From positions 2,976,001 to 3,040,000 of the forward strand of contig NZ_PGEX01000001.1 of the NCBI RefSeq assembly GCF_002797675.1: a DNA stretch of 64,000 nucleotides. Direction: 5' to 3'. The stretch is from Hallerella succinigenes (lineage in GTDB: Bacteria > Fibrobacterota > Fibrobacteria > Fibrobacterales > Fibrobacteraceae). Shown one piece after another: positions 26,113-35,199 of the stretch. The position numbers and the translations under genes were made by a program. Below the pieces are notes generated by a model. It saw only the letters and a program-made list of their open reading frames with translations, ran no database searches and was not told where the DNA came from. Positions within the stretch are counted from its first letter, which is position 1; each line of letters starts with the position of its first letter.

Positions 26113-26680
26113 GGTCTAGGCAGCCTGTTTTGACAGCCTATATTCAACCGGAGTCATGTATCCCAGCGAACTATGGAGCCGTTTCCGGTTGTAGAACAGT
26201 TCGATGTACCTGAAAACGGCCTCCCGCACCTCTTCGATGTCCTTGAAGTCACACCTGTAGGCCAGCTCCTTCTTGAAGCTTGCGAAGAAGCTTTCCGTGC
26301 AAGCGTTGTCATAGGGGCAGCCCGGGGCGCTCATCGAGGGCGTTATCCCGTTCTCCGAGAGCATCGTGCGGTAGCCCATGCTACTGTACTGCACGCCACG
26401 GTCGATAACTCTACTACGGCAAGGTACACCCACCCAAGCGCAGCCTTGACGTAGGTGATGTCGACGGCCGAGACTGCGTTCAGGCTGTCGGGATCGAAGT
26501 TCCGCTGCACCAGGTTCTCGCTGTACATGGCGTCGCATTTGCCCTTGCGCCTCAATCATGCCCATAGGCAAATAAGTTTGCCTGGGTCACGATACTCGGC
26601 TTGTTGACTTTTCGCCTTTCAGGACCGGTTTGATGACTTGTTCCCTTGTCTCGGAGTTGTAGCTATCCTCTTATTAAACT
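26113..26680 (-). pseudogene. Wreck of an IS3-family element
   Basis: Three pieces in different frames. Near 26590-26660 an orfA start (NSETREQVIKPVLKGEKS). Near 26420-26500 the first catalytic aspartate region of orfB (SAVDITYVKAALGWVYLAVV). From 26119 to 26420 the remaining end (DRGVQYSSMGYRTML, DNACTESFFASFKKELAYRC, RLHSSLGYMTPVEYRLSKQ). Roughly 50 codons are lost between the first two aspartates, and frames are broken, so it cannot make a working transposase. It is a different subgroup from the intact IS150-like element. No other gene is seen in 26061-26789. Confidence 0.8.
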
Positions 26681-29962: not shown

Positions 29963-30889
29963 ATGCGTATTTTTATTACTGGTGGTACCGGTTTTATCGG
30001 TCATTATGTGGCTCGTGAACTTTTGGAAAGCAACCACGAAGTTGTCATTTTGACAAGACACCCGGATAAGATTCCCGCACTTGCAAACCATTCCAAGGTG
30101 ACGATCCTCGTAGGAACCATTTACGATGCCGCGACCATTTCCAAAGGCCTTGTCGGCTGTGATGCGTGTATTCATATTGCACTCGGTTGGGGCGAAACTC
30201 CACTTTCCATGCTTGAAAATGATACACGTGCTACCGTGCTGATTTTGCAGGCGGCAAGCAAGGCGGGGTGCAAGAAATTTATTTATACCTCAAGTACCGC
30301 CGCGATGGGAAAATTCCGCTCGGTGATGAATGAAAACGTCATCAACCTTCCGGTGGACCTTTACGGAGCGACGAAGGCGGCAGGCGAAGCCTATGTGCTC
30401 GGCTTCCGTGGAACCTCGATGAAGCGCAACATTATTCGTCCGGGTTATACGTTCGGAAACCCCGCCTTTGGCGAAAACGGCGTCACTCAGCCCGATAGAC
30501 GTTTCGCTTTGATGGCGCAAGCCGTAGTGAATGGTGGCGATATTCACCTGATTAGGAATGATGGTACGCAATTCATTTCTGCTGCAGACCAGGCAAAGCT
30601 CTTTAAACGCGTTCTCGACAGCGATTATAACGAAGAAATTTATTTGGGACTCAGCCGTAACTGGATTTCTTGGCACGACATTGCCAATCGAATGCTCGAA
30701 CTCTATGAAAAATTGACCCGCAAAAAAAGCTCCGCGAAAATCGTGGAGCAAGATTTGGGGTGGTCCGACCATCCGATGCTCTTTTCTGTGGAAAAAATCG
30801 CAGCCACTTTCGGCTTAAGCTTTGACGCTAGCGCCGAAATGGACAAGCATATCGAATGGCAGTTGAAATCTACAATAGCGAATTCTTGA
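29963..30889 (+). CDS. NAD-dependent epimerase/dehydratase (extended SDR)
   Basis: 308 residues from the ATG at 29963, with AAAGAGGA 7 bp upstream; an upstream start at 29927 is less likely. Rossmann fold: FITGGTGFIGHYVARELLES (GxxGxxG) at the N-terminus, with active-site Ser/Thr in YTSSTAAMGKF and the Y-x3-K pair in YGATKAAGE. The rest follows the atypical SDR pattern that uses NAD(P) to modify nucleotide-bound sugars or related substrates. The exact substrate is unclear. The 3' end overlaps the convergent kinase gene by 20 bp. Confidence 0.88.
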   Translation: MRIFITGGTGFIGHYVARELLESNHEVVILTRHPDKIPALANHSKVTILVGTIYDAATISKGLVGCDACIHIALGWGETPLSMLENDTRATVLILQAASKAGCKKFIYTSSTAAMGKFRSVMNENVINLPVDLYGATKAAGEAYVLGFRGTSMKRNIIRPGYTFGNPAFGENGVTQPDRRFALMAQAVVNGGDIHLIRNDGTQFISAADQAKLFKRVLDSDYNEEIYLGLSRNWISWHDIANRMLELYEKLTRKKSSAKIVEQDLGWSDHPMLFSVEKIAATFGLSFDASAEMDKHIEWQLKSTIANS

Positions 30890-31889
30890 GGAAAGTAATC
30901 GCTTCGTGGCGAGAAGGGCTCAGCGGTTCGTAAAGTTCGAGTACGCGGAGCAAACGCTTTTTGCCCGGTTCAATATACTGCTCAAAGCTTGCAATCTTCT
31001 TTTCCATCGACAAGAAACAGAACGCTCCCATCGCCTGCATCAAACGTTGCAGGCTTGCTTGTAAAAAGAGCGTCCATGCTTCATCCTTGTCGAAGGATTC
31101 GTGGCAAAGCGTATAACCGCGGTACCAATCTTCAAAGAAATCTTCCACCATTGCTTCTGGGAGAGAGACGTACGGATCCCAAAGAAGCGAAGCGATGTCG
31201 TAGAACATCGTGCCGCGGCGAGCGCCTTGGAAGTCTACAAAGCCGACTTCGGAATTGTTGCAAACCATGATGTTCTGGGACTGGAAATCGCGATGCATCA
31301 AAACCTTCGGATGCGTGTCGACCATGCAAGCGAGGGTCGAAAAGAAGTTTTCGACTGCCTGCGGAATTTCGGCAATGCCCCTTTTCTTTTGAAGATAATT
31401 TGTACGGAAATAATCGGTTTCCCATTTGAGAGCGCTGTAATCAAAACGGCGAGCTGCAATATCTGCACGGCAAAGGAAGAACTTGGGGCTGGATTCCTGC
31501 CAGCGGACCAATGCATCGATCACAGCCGGGTACAGAACACGTGCGCTGCCAGCGAGGGTCTGACCGTCTTTGACTACAACGGAAAGGAGCGTGTGTTCGC
31601 CCATGTCCTGCATCAGGATTTGGGCGAAAGCATCGTCGACAGCCCAAATTTCTGGTGTCGGCAGGCTAAAGTCGTTAAAGGATTTTCCGTAAGAGACAAA
31701 ATGTTCAAAGTCTTCATTCGCGGAGGCGTTCGTTTGCAGAATCGCGGTCTTTTCGCCTTCGGTGATGCGGTAATATTGACGACCCGATCCTGCGGAACCG
31801 GCGAGGCTCCATGCGGCTTTAGCGGTAAAGCCTTTACTTTCAAGGGAACGGAGAATCTTGGGGGCAATTTGCGGACGTTCTTGTATCAT
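30870..31889 (-). CDS. Aminoglycoside-phosphotransferase-fold kinase, AmgK-like
   Basis: 339 residues from the ATG at 31889 (MIQERPQIAPKILRSL; CCAGGA 7 bp upstream); an earlier in-frame start at 31940 lacks an SD. Kinase-fold motifs: LMQDMGEHTLLS, the catalytic loop HRDFQSQNIMV and the metal-binding VDFQGARRGTMFYD. The order and length match AmgK, the N-acetylmuramate/GlcNAc anomeric kinase of cell-wall recycling, more than antibiotic resistance kinases. The partner MurU is not visible nearby. Assignment to amino-sugar phosphorylation is inferred. Confidence 0.8.
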   Translation of the reverse strand: MIQERPQIAPKILRSLESKGFTAKAAWSLAGSAGSGRQYYRITEGEKTAILQTNASANEDFEHFVSYGKSFNDFSLPTPEIWAVDDAFAQILMQDMGEHTLLSVVVKDGQTLAGSARVLYPAVIDALVRWQESSPKFFLCRADIAARRFDYSALKWETDYFRTNYLQKKRGIAEIPQAVENFFSTLACMVDTHPKVLMHRDFQSQNIMVCNNSEVGFVDFQGARRGTMFYDIASLLWDPYVSLPEAMVEDFFEDWYRGYTLCHESFDKDEAWTLFLQASLQRLMQAMGAFCFLSMEKKIASFEQYIEPGKKRLLRVLELYEPLSPSRHEAITFLKNSLL

Positions 31890-32025
31890 AGCGTATCCTG
31901 GAATTGAATTTCTTTGATAATATATCATTCTAATTTTCATTTTTGTACGAAATTCAAATATTTCAAAAATATTTTTTTGAATTTCCCGTTGCCATTGCCA
32001 AAAAGCTTTTTTATTTTCTTTGCGT

Positions 32026-32100
32026 ATGAATTACTCGATCATCACTCTCAACGGCAACAACTGGTGGTGGCGTACTTTGAAATCGGAGTACGCGTTTTGA
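32026..32100 (+). CDS. trpL: trp leader peptide
   Basis: 24 codons, starting MNYSIITLNGNN, then WWW and RTLKSEYAF, with TGA at 32098-32100. Three tryptophan codons in a row at residues 13-15 are the sensor of tryptophan supply. Product is not expected to have a function of its own. No clear Shine-Dalgarno. Confidence 0.85.
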   Translation: MNYSIITLNGNNWWWRTLKSEYAF

Positions 32101-32127
32101 TCGTTTGATCCATTTTTAGGCAAATGC

Positions 32128-32158
32128 GGCTCCGATATGAAATCGGGGCTTTTTTTTT
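32128..32158 (+). terminator. Attenuator terminator
   Basis: GCTCCGAT-atgaa-ATCGGGGC, an 8-bp stem with one U-G pair, followed by nine T. It lies 31 bp before the trpE start. Confidence 0.85.
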
Positions 32159-32189
32159 GCATTAGAAATTCAATTATAAGGAAGAAATC

Positions 32190-33599
32190 ATGACCGAAAG
32201 AACAGACAGTATCTATGTAGCGCTCCCCGGTGAACGCTATACCCCGTTCTCCTTAGCGAAAAAGCTCGGCGCTAAGGCAATCTTTGAATCGGCAAGCTTT
32301 GCGCACGGTCGTAGCCGCTATTCCACTCTGATGGTAGACGAAGGCTTCCGTTTGCGTCAGAACGAAAAGGACGTGAGCATTATCGTGGACGGCAAGGAAA
32401 GCGTCTTTTTGAAGGAAGGCGAAGGAGACATTCTCGATGCTCTTTTAAGGATCTCTGCGGAAAATACGGTTCCGCCTAACCAGATCCCAATCCCTTCTTC
32501 GGGCGTGGGCTATCTCGGCTATGAATTCTGCGCCCGCTGCGATACGATTCGCCTGGCTCCGCAGGTCGATGAATTGAACATTCCAGAAGCGGAATTCTTA
32601 ATCGGTCACATTTACATCGTCTTTGACCACTTTACCGAAAAGCTTCACCTGTTCGCTCTGAACTACGAAGAACACCAGATTAATTTGCCGGCTGCGATCG
32701 AAAACATCCAGAAGCGTCTTGCGGATCTGGACTTTAGCTATCTCGCTCCGGAAGCCAAGTACAGCAAGGGCATTACGATGACGGACATCGAAAACTCTCG
32801 CAAGGAATACGTGGAAAAGGTCGCGGAACTGCAGAAGCATATTATCGCAGGTGACATCGTGCAAGCGGTCCCATCTCGCCGCATCCAGTTCGCAAGCGAT
32901 ATCGAAGCTTTGGACATTTATCGCAGACTTCGCACGGTGAACCCGTCGCCGTATATGTTCTACCTCGATTACGGTACGCATCAGTTCATCGGCGCTTCGC
33001 CGGAAAGCCTTGTACGTGTGCGCGAGGGCATCGCCACAATTCACCCGATTGCCGGTACACGTCGTCGCGGTAAAGATGAAGCGGAAGATGAAATACTCAT
33101 CAAGAATTTGAAGGCCGATCCCAAGGAACGCGCAGAACACCTGATGCTCGTGGACCTAGCTCGTAACGACCTCGGCCGAGTTTGTGAAGCGGGTACCGTG
33201 GAAACGACCAAGTACATGGATTGCGAAAAGTTCAGCCATGTGATTCACCTCGTTTCCGATGTGCAGGGAAAGGTTTCGAAGGGCAAAAAAGCGATTGAAG
33301 TCTTGCGTTCGAGCTTCCCGGCGGGTACGGTGAGCGGCGCTCCGAAAATCAGCGCAATCGAAATTCTTTCTCGCCTTGAAAAGGTCAAGCGTCGCTTCTA
33401 TGCGGGTGCCGTGGGCTATATGGAATCCGATGGTGACTTGGATTTTTGCATTGCCATTCGTTGCTGCTTGAAGCAGGGTAAGACGATTAGCTTGCAGGCG
33501 GGAGGCGGTATTGTCGCAGCCTCTAACGCTGAACGTGAATTCGAAGAAACAAATGAGAAATTGGGTGCCGTCCGCGCCGTGTTGGAAGGAGAAAATTAA
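32190..33599 (+). CDS. trpE: Anthranilate synthase component I
   Basis: 469 residues. It converts chorismate to anthranilate using ammonia from TrpG. Chorismate-binding signatures: IHPIAGTRRRGKDE, ERAEHLMLVDLARNDLGRVC, SSFPAGTVSGAPKISAIEIL and GGGIVAASNAEREFEE. The N-terminal tryptophan-inhibition motif is present as FESASFAHGRSRYSTLM in place of the usual LLES. AAGGA lies 8 bp before the ATG. It is the first structural gene after the attenuator; the next ORF begins one base after its TAA. Confidence 0.97.
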   Translation: MTERTDSIYVALPGERYTPFSLAKKLGAKAIFESASFAHGRSRYSTLMVDEGFRLRQNEKDVSIIVDGKESVFLKEGEGDILDALLRISAENTVPPNQIPIPSSGVGYLGYEFCARCDTIRLAPQVDELNIPEAEFLIGHIYIVFDHFTEKLHLFALNYEEHQINLPAAIENIQKRLADLDFSYLAPEAKYSKGITMTDIENSRKEYVEKVAELQKHIIAGDIVQAVPSRRIQFASDIEALDIYRRLRTVNPSPYMFYLDYGTHQFIGASPESLVRVREGIATIHPIAGTRRRGKDEAEDEILIKNLKADPKERAEHLMLVDLARNDLGRVCEAGTVETTKYMDCEKFSHVIHLVSDVQGKVSKGKKAIEVLRSSFPAGTVSGAPKISAIEILSRLEKVKRRFYAGAVGYMESDGDLDFCIAIRCCLKQGKTISLQAGGGIVAASNAEREFEETNEKLGAVRAVLEGEN

Positions 33600-33600
33600 A

Positions 33601-35199
33601 ATGATCGTCATTATCGATAACTACGATTCCTTTACATACAACGTCTATCAGGCGCTGGCAAAAATCACCCCGGAAGAAATTCGCGTGCTCCGTAGCCGTG
33701 AATGCACGATCCAGGAAATTGAAGCCTTGAATCCGAGCCGTTTGATCGTGAGCCCGGGTCCGGGTCGTCCGGAAGATGCGGGAATTTCCGTAGAAGCGAT
33801 CAAGCATTTTGCTGGCAAGCTTCCGATTCTCGGCGTATGCCTCGGGCATCAGGCTATCGGCTACGCTTTTGGTGCAAAGATTGTGCAGGCGAAGTTCATT
33901 AAGCACGGCATTGCGGAAGAAATTGACTTGGACGGCAAGGGCCTTTTCCGTACCATCGGCAAGAAGAACATCTTTACGCGTTACCACAGCCTTGTGATCG
34001 ATGAATCGACACTGCCTTCGGATTTTGAAATCACGGCACGTGCTACGGACGGCGACATTATGGGCATTCGCCATAAGACGATGCCGATTGAAGGCGTGCA
34101 GTTCCATCCGGAATCCATTGCGAGCGGCCGTGCAGACGAATTTTTCAAGGCGTTCTTGAACTACCGTCGCGAACCGCTCGATGTGCGCGGCATTTTGAAC
34201 ACGCTCATGGACGGCAAGGATCTTTCCCGTAAGACAGCAGAGCTCTTTATGGAAGACCTGACGGACGGCATCATGGATGAACGCCAGATGGCGGGCATCT
34301 TGACCGCACTCTTTGCTAAGGGTCCTGTGGCAGACGAAATCGCCGGCTGCGCCTATGTGCTGAACAAGAAGAAACGCCGTTTCCCGTACAGCGGTGACGA
34401 ACTCACGGATATCGTGGGTACGGGTGGCGATGGTAAGGGAAGCTTCAACGTGAGTTCCCTTTCGGGCCTCATCGCCGCGACTTGCGGTGCGAAGGTAGCT
34501 AAGCACGGTAACCGTGCCGTTTCGAGCAAGTCGGGCGCAGCGGACTTCTATACGGCTGCAGGCTTTAAGCTCGATATGACGCCAACGCAGGCTGCAACAG
34601 TCATCGACAAGACGAACTTTGTATTTCTCATGGCTCCGGTTTATCACAGCGCAATGCGCTTTGCGGCCCCGGTGCGTGCGGCTCTTGGCGTAAAGACCAT
34701 CATGAACTTGCTTGGACCTCTCACGAACCCGGCTGAAGCCAAGTATCTGATGCTCGGCGTATACAGCAAATCAGTGCTCGAACCGTTTACCAAGGCGGCA
34801 AAGGCTCTCGGTGCAAAGCGTGTGATGGTCGCAATCAGCGATGACGGCTATGATGAAATTTCTCCGTGCGTTCCGTCAACGATTGCAGAAATTCTCGAAG
34901 ACGGCAAGTACCGTGAATACCGCCTGGATCCAAAGGAATTCGGCGTTCCGTCTGTGGACCCGGAAGATCTCGCCGGCGGCACGGGCGCAGACAACTTTGC
35001 GCTCGCCATAGATCTGTTGAATGGCAAGGGTCGCCCGGGCATCAAGTATGCTTGCGCTTTGAATGCGGGGGCAGCCCTTTATATTAGCAATAAGGCAAAG
35101 ACCGTGAAGGAAGGCTACGACATGGCGATGAAGGCAATGGAAGACGGCTCAGTTCTAAAGAAGATCGAAGAAGTCAAGAACGCCACTCAGCAGTTCTAA
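33601..35199 (+). CDS. trpGD: Fused anthranilate synthase component II and anthranilate phosphoribosyltransferase
   Basis: 532 residues, a fusion like E. coli TrpGD (531). TrpG part about 1-192: class I glutaminase with C80 in ILGVCLGHQ and H169/E171 in GVQFHPES. TrpD part about 200-532: GTGGDGKGSFNVS for phosphoribosyl diphosphate and KHGNRAVSSKSGAAD. The ATG at 33601 is chosen because GGAG lies 8 bp upstream and the glutaminase starts normally (MIVIIDNYDSFTYN); an ORF from 33511 overlaps trpE in another frame. No trpC, F, B or A follow; a terminator closes the operon. Confidence 0.96.
   Translation: MIVIIDNYDSFTYNVYQALAKITPEEIRVLRSRECTIQEIEALNPSRLIVSPGPGRPEDAGISVEAIKHFAGKLPILGVCLGHQAIGYAFGAKIVQAKFIKHGIAEEIDLDGKGLFRTIGKKNIFTRYHSLVIDESTLPSDFEITARATDGDIMGIRHKTMPIEGVQFHPESIASGRADEFFKAFLNYRREPLDVRGILNTLMDGKDLSRKTAELFMEDLTDGIMDERQMAGILTALFAKGPVADEIAGCAYVLNKKKRRFPYSGDELTDIVGTGGDGKGSFNVSSLSGLIAATCGAKVAKHGNRAVSSKSGAADFYTAAGFKLDMTPTQAATVIDKTNFVFLMAPVYHSAMRFAAPVRAALGVKTIMNLLGPLTNPAEAKYLMLGVYSKSVLEPFTKAAKALGAKRVMVAISDDGYDEISPCVPSTIAEILEDGKYREYRLDPKEFGVPSVDPEDLAGGTGADNFALAIDLLNGKGRPGIKYACALNAGAALYISNKAKTVKEGYDMAMKAMEDGSVLKKIEEVKNATQQF

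Follow-up and report, generated by a model that had tools for sequence, protein, structure and literature searches.

Ribosome-mediated attenuation is a switch long known from Escherichia coli, whose trp attenuator comprises tandem Trp codons, RNA strands 1 to 4 with mutually exclusive 2:3 and 3:4 pairings, and an intrinsic terminator ahead of trpE-trpGD. Elsewhere, trp genes are controlled by T-box elements, TRAP or TrpR, and a TRAP-controlled leader carries 9 to 11 (G/U)AG repeats. According to the excerpt cited here, the range of attenuation then known covered Proteobacteria, Actinobacteria, and that paper's own Firmicutes case (PMC2965389). The partial text of a second source describes trp attenuators of Corynebacterium and Streptomyces, with a double or triple UGG leader and a terminator, an attenuated second trp operon (trpB2A) in C. 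diphtheriae, and a pseudoknot LEU element at actinobacterial leuA (PMC1262725). In Sinorhizobium meliloti, as far as the cited portion of the work goes, the ATG of trpL is the 5' end of the transcript and attenuation operates without repression (PMC7298713). The earlier note on this DNA was aware of no description for the phylum, and we likewise found nothing in the open-access literature that deals with leader-peptide attenuation in Fibrobacter or with mapping of its start sites; reports elsewhere are possible. The mechanism itself is known, and in Fibrobacterota it is apparently undescribed.

The window analyzed here, a stretch of 64,000 nt in the 3.13-Mb single-contig genome of the gut bacterium Hallerella succinigenes, has, ahead of trp genes, a short ORF that can be translated and includes tandem Trp codons and, between this ORF and trpE, an intrinsic terminator (Table 1). 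The description of the genome as Fibrobacter-like was apt, since the nearest named relative of the window trpE, 97% identical, is that of a Fibrobacter MAG (Fibrobacteraceae, Fibrobacterota). Direct reading and translation confirmed the 24-codon leader with three tandem Trp codons, and the terminator with nine T is also where the earlier note had placed it; a hairpin scan detected both the 1:2 and the terminator hairpins mechanically. The antiterminator had been described as 7 perfect base pairs: its core stands (ATCGGAG at 32082-32088 with CTCCGAT at 32130-32136, by direct reading), but its length does not, the helix in the stalled-ribosome fold consisting of 8 bp, one bulge, and 7 bp. The leader ATG lies 8 nt past the -10 box and lacks a Shine-Dalgarno sequence. 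Upstream, a divergently oriented gene for a member of the APH phosphotransferase family (30870-31940) has the intergenic region in common with the trp leader promoter, and an ORF at 26116-26571, judged by eye, resembles the C-terminal portion of a transposase of the IS3 type.

Table 1. Features of the trp leader and the genes downstream of it in the H. succinigenes window
Feature	Position	Strand	Details and basis
Predicted sigma-70 promoter	31989..32017	+	-35 TTGCCA 31989-31994, 17-nt spacer, -10 TATTTT 32012-32017; promoter scan
Leader peptide ORF	32026..32100	+	24 aa, MNYSIITLNGNNWWWRTLKSEYAF then stop; direct reading and ORF translation
Three tandem Trp codons (sensor)	32062..32070	+	direct reading, ORF translation
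1:2 (pause/protector) hairpin	32070..32093	+	10 pairs, within leader ORF; folding and hairpin scan
Antiterminator 2:3	32082..32136	+	32082-32097 with 32122-32136; 15 pairs and one bulge
Terminator 3:4	32128..32158	+	9 pairs, 32128-32136 with 32142-32150, then nine T at 32150-32158
trpE Shine-Dalgarno-like AAGGA	32178..32182	+	direct reading
trpE, anthranilate synthase component I	32190..33599	+	Pfam PF00425, PF04715
trpGD fusion (glutamine amidotransferase and anthranilate phosphoribosyltransferase)	33601..35199	+	Pfam PF00117, PF00591, PF02885

The locus shares with the E. coli attenuator each of the elements listed at the outset. It differs in that no TrpR was found in the genome, that the transcript is predicted to be leaderless, that a leader also precedes a separate trpB unit, and that in the window genus the 1:2 hairpin lies, by eye, entirely within the ORF; the leader stop codon of most other genera falls in or beside the loop of this hairpin (also by eye). 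The trpLE(G) system of S. meliloti, as described in the cited portion, is similar in its trpL transcript starting from the ATG and in its attenuation without repression, but belongs to another phylum, and here trpB and leuA have leaders too. The actinobacterial attenuators, going by the part of the source cited, are similar in their double or triple UGG leader, their terminator, and the second attenuated trp operon; they also belong to another phylum, and their leuA has a pseudoknot LEU element where a Leu-codon attenuator is found here.

We propose, with a probability of about 0.93, that trpE-trpGD is under the control of a ribosome-mediated transcription attenuator. RNA polymerase would initiate at the leader AUG or within a few bases of it, and the ribosome would bind at the 5' AUG. 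With ample Trp-tRNA, the ribosome would reach the stop codon and mask strand 2, and the 3:4 terminator would form; with scarce Trp-tRNA, it would stall at the Trp codons and mask strand 1, leaving strand 2 free for strand 3, and the 2:3 pairing would lead to readthrough into trpE-trpGD. RNA folding, which the earlier note had suggested as a check, supports this proposal. In folding, the leader stretch surpasses 199 of 200 shuffled versions (z = -3.1), and when the stretch covered by a ribosome was masked, with and without strand 4, the antiterminator and the terminator proved mutually exclusive. A ribosome placed on any of W13, W14, and W15 leads to the 2:3 antiterminator (-21.4 kcal/mol) while strand 4 is still lacking, and with the ribosome on W14 or W15 this structure remains the final minimum once strand 4 is present. 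For a ribosome on W13, the final minimum-energy structure is the terminator by 1.5 kcal/mol (-22.9 versus -21.4), so that antitermination from this position would depend on the order of folding. With the ribosome at the stop codon, the terminator alone remains.

Among 4227 Rfam families, the best match to the leader was RF00513 (Trp_leader), full-length but weak at 23.2 bits (E = 0.013); as this is below the 41-bit gathering cut-off, the element would work like members of the Trp_leader family without being filed among them. The terminator taken alone would fit control by a T-box, TRAP or TrpR, all of them known regulators of trp genes in other bacteria, with the short ORF being incidental. 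We regard this as very improbable: the T-box covariance model gave no match at the leader, nor did any other Rfam family at its gathering score; neither TrpR (0/41) nor TRAP (0/41) was found in 41 genomes, in searches that included positive controls; 32022-32160 contains just two GAG/TAG triplets, a count unlike that of a TRAP-type leader; and the WW(W) ORF is conserved together with the stems.

This conservation was examined in 60 relatives, 52 of which had a trpE match; two genomes with a match were not fetched, and the upstream region of one locus (L032) was too short to judge. A WW or WWW leader lies upstream of trpE in 23/23 loci with the window type of the gene (21 from Fibrobacteraceae and 2 from a sister family; trpE identity, 61 to 100%), and both competing pairings (2:3 and 3:4) persist along with it, in agreement with the conservation that the earlier note had asked about. 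A WWW leader is likewise present at two further Fibrobacteraceae loci with a divergent trpE (L047 and L048, 38 to 40%), where the stem sequences are unrelated. In a named collection, the leader was present at 41 of the 42 Fibrobacter trpE loci; at the remaining one (L059 / L280, a MAG), trpE is located behind trpB-trpA and a WWW leader heads the combined operon, before trpB. The earlier note had held that loss of the leader and its competing pairings from relatives that keep trpE would speak against attenuation. No such loss was seen within the family wherever the window type of trpE occurs, but conservation does not extend across the phylum, as no such leader was found in 7/7 loci of genus g6 or in 17/17 informative loci of other families. 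Comparison of the sequences indicates that the leader is conserved beyond chance, with compensatory changes in relatives, and a candidate attenuator in Fibrobacteraceae is well supported on this basis.

Two related ideas were considered and set aside. Acquisition of the leader together with trpE from rumen Treponema, whose TrpE is ∼60 to 66% identical, was dropped after a WW leader was found in 0/33 Treponema/Spirochaetaceae loci examined with 700 nt of upstream sequence. Four rumen Treponema loci among those lacking it (L086, L095, L103, and L104; TrpE 62 to 65% identical) instead carry a palindromic repeat similar to GTTACTAT..ATAGTAAC close to the promoter; this repeat resembles the operator of a repressor. 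A function of the leader peptide in trans likewise found no support, given that the part before the Trp codons varies among genera.

Compensatory changes are seen in both alternative structures. Across the trp leaders, the 2:3 helix exchanges C-G for U-A (GAGUCCGG:CCGGACUC versus GAGUCUGG:CCAGACUC) and, within one genus, A-U for G-C (AAGUCUGG:CCGGACUU versus GAGUCUGG:CCGGACUC); a second type of 2:3 helix also shows C-G replaced by U-A (CGGAGU:GCUCCG versus UGGAGU:GCUCCA). In 24 leaders of genus g2, the helix has 7/8 pairs and one C-A mismatch. The terminator columns exchange G-C, C-G, and A-U (57 trp leaders, L047 and L048 excluded), and in g2 the T tract is discontinuous in several leaders (for example, CTCTTTTAC). 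In a test with 100 shuffles per leader, counted after removal of duplicates, the stalled-state energy was better than that of at least 95% of the shuffles in 32/34 trpE, 9/15 trpB, and 15/23 leuA distinct leaders; the number of strand-3 bases paired upstream, which is a cruder and poor measure, beat the shuffles in only 4/34, 0/15, and 2/23 leaders, respectively. With the ribosome at the stop codon, the terminator was intact in 72/72 leaders. Most g2 trpE leaders (L005, L006, L008-L010, and others) carry an extra element ∼30 to 40 nt past the terminator, in which either AAGCCTTTGC shows complementarity to GCAAAGGCTT in the region of strand 3 or CCTCC[GA]G does so to strand 4; L012 and L075 have a corresponding G/A change. 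This element is absent from the window genome; since it is made after the terminator, it may stabilize the readthrough RNA.

Terminator-like hairpins arise at 0.4 per shuffled region of equal size, a frequency that leaves room for a constitutive terminator or an mRNA-stability hairpin next to an ORF that occurs by chance. The comparison makes this explanation highly unlikely: in all leaders (44 distinct cores were tabulated, duplicates being dropped before counting), WW(W) stands directly before strand 1 while the rest of the peptide differs between genera, the 2:3 helix shows the compensatory pairs described above, and a version of the same plan with Leu codons precedes leuA.

This Leu leader was among the sites recovered when the own genome was scanned with TTGCCA-N16-18-TANNNT-N6-8-ATG, a pattern derived from the trpE leaders. 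The scan returned five sites versus one in the reversed control, namely, the window leader, a Trp leader at trpB, a Leu leader at leuA, and two others. The second Trp leader, MKNVKNNNRWWRRA, lies outside the window before trpB (L132 / L142; C1, ∼129650-129830) and has the same promoter plan, predicted to be leaderless, as the trpE leader. It was present in 15/15 genomes listed for genera g1 and g2, loci L163-L170 being left out because the trpB start was not located; in five genomes from other genera, trpB has no leader of its own and follows trpE at a distance of ∼3 to 4 kb downstream, on the strand that also carries trpE. The Leu-rich peptide MRTTLILNLLNDRLPGFSSGAVSVFG, followed by a candidate attenuator, precedes leuA, also outside the window (L131 / L172; C1, ∼68700-68960). 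Such a leader is conserved across the family, being found in 24/24 loci with a located start (six loci, L196-L201, were left out for want of one); at leuA_L182 the script called no terminator where one is readable. The leuA 2:3 helix retains 6/6 pairs in each of the 22 cases aligned by the script, shows compensatory changes, and alternates mainly between GGAGCG:CGCUCC and GAAGCG:CGCUUC. No leader peptide was found before hisG/hisE (0/30 loci) or ilvB (0/30 loci), showing that attenuation is not general among the amino acid operons. Scans of the own genome with TTGACA (6 matches, 2 in the control) and with TTGCNN plus TATNTT (18 matches, 7 in the control) gave no leader peptide and no new leader peptide, respectively.

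The arrangement TTGNC[AG]-17-TANNNT recurs upstream of the leaders of relatives. In 81 distinct upstream regions, the ATG lies 6 nt (33 regions), 7 nt (42), 8 nt (3), 9 nt (2), or 10 nt (1) past the -10 box, a distribution that is biased because the leaders were partly chosen for a -10 box; the 17-nt spacer, found in 72/81, and the -35 box are free of this bias. When all fetched loci were considered, 106 of 29,291 distinct ATGs had such a promoter 6 to 8 nt upstream; 87 of them were leader-like by a script filter, L191, a leuA leader, adds one more, and several of the others stem from loci that the pattern itself had brought in. Transcription usually starts ∼7 nt past the -10 box, and the transcripts of the trpE, trpB, and leuA leaders should therefore start at or next to the AUG. 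Judging from promoter geometry, the leader RNA appears to have its start codon as its 5' end, which is an unusual trait. An attenuator whose leader is not leaderless, with a promoter further upstream and a normal 5' untranslated region, is the alternative. We consider it unlikely in view of the distance of 6 to 8 nt in 78/81 regions (biased) and the prevailing 17-nt spacer (unbiased), the absence of a Shine-Dalgarno-like 4-mer from 76/81 regions (present in 5/81), and the recovery of the trpB and leuA leaders by a scan derived from trpE. In Fibrobacteres, the excerpt cited reports a Shine-Dalgarno signal that is less obvious but detectable (PMC3155529). A broader reading of the leaderless attenuator is possible, though we hold it only tentatively: trp and leu control in Fibrobacteraceae might form a set of leaderless attenuators in which coupling between ribosome and polymerase sets in at the first codon, the terminated RNA of ∼130 nt might be a leaderless mRNA, perhaps acting in trans as in S. 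meliloti, and the Fibrobacter-proper element complementary to strand 3/4 might add a further layer.

A conserved set of trp and leu leaders would show that close coupling of transcription and translation serves regulation in Fibrobacterota, and these leaders would provide a simple assay of such coupling in rumen cellulose degraders. That a design predicted to be leaderless occurs in another, distant lineage suggests that it is a good fit to attenuators.
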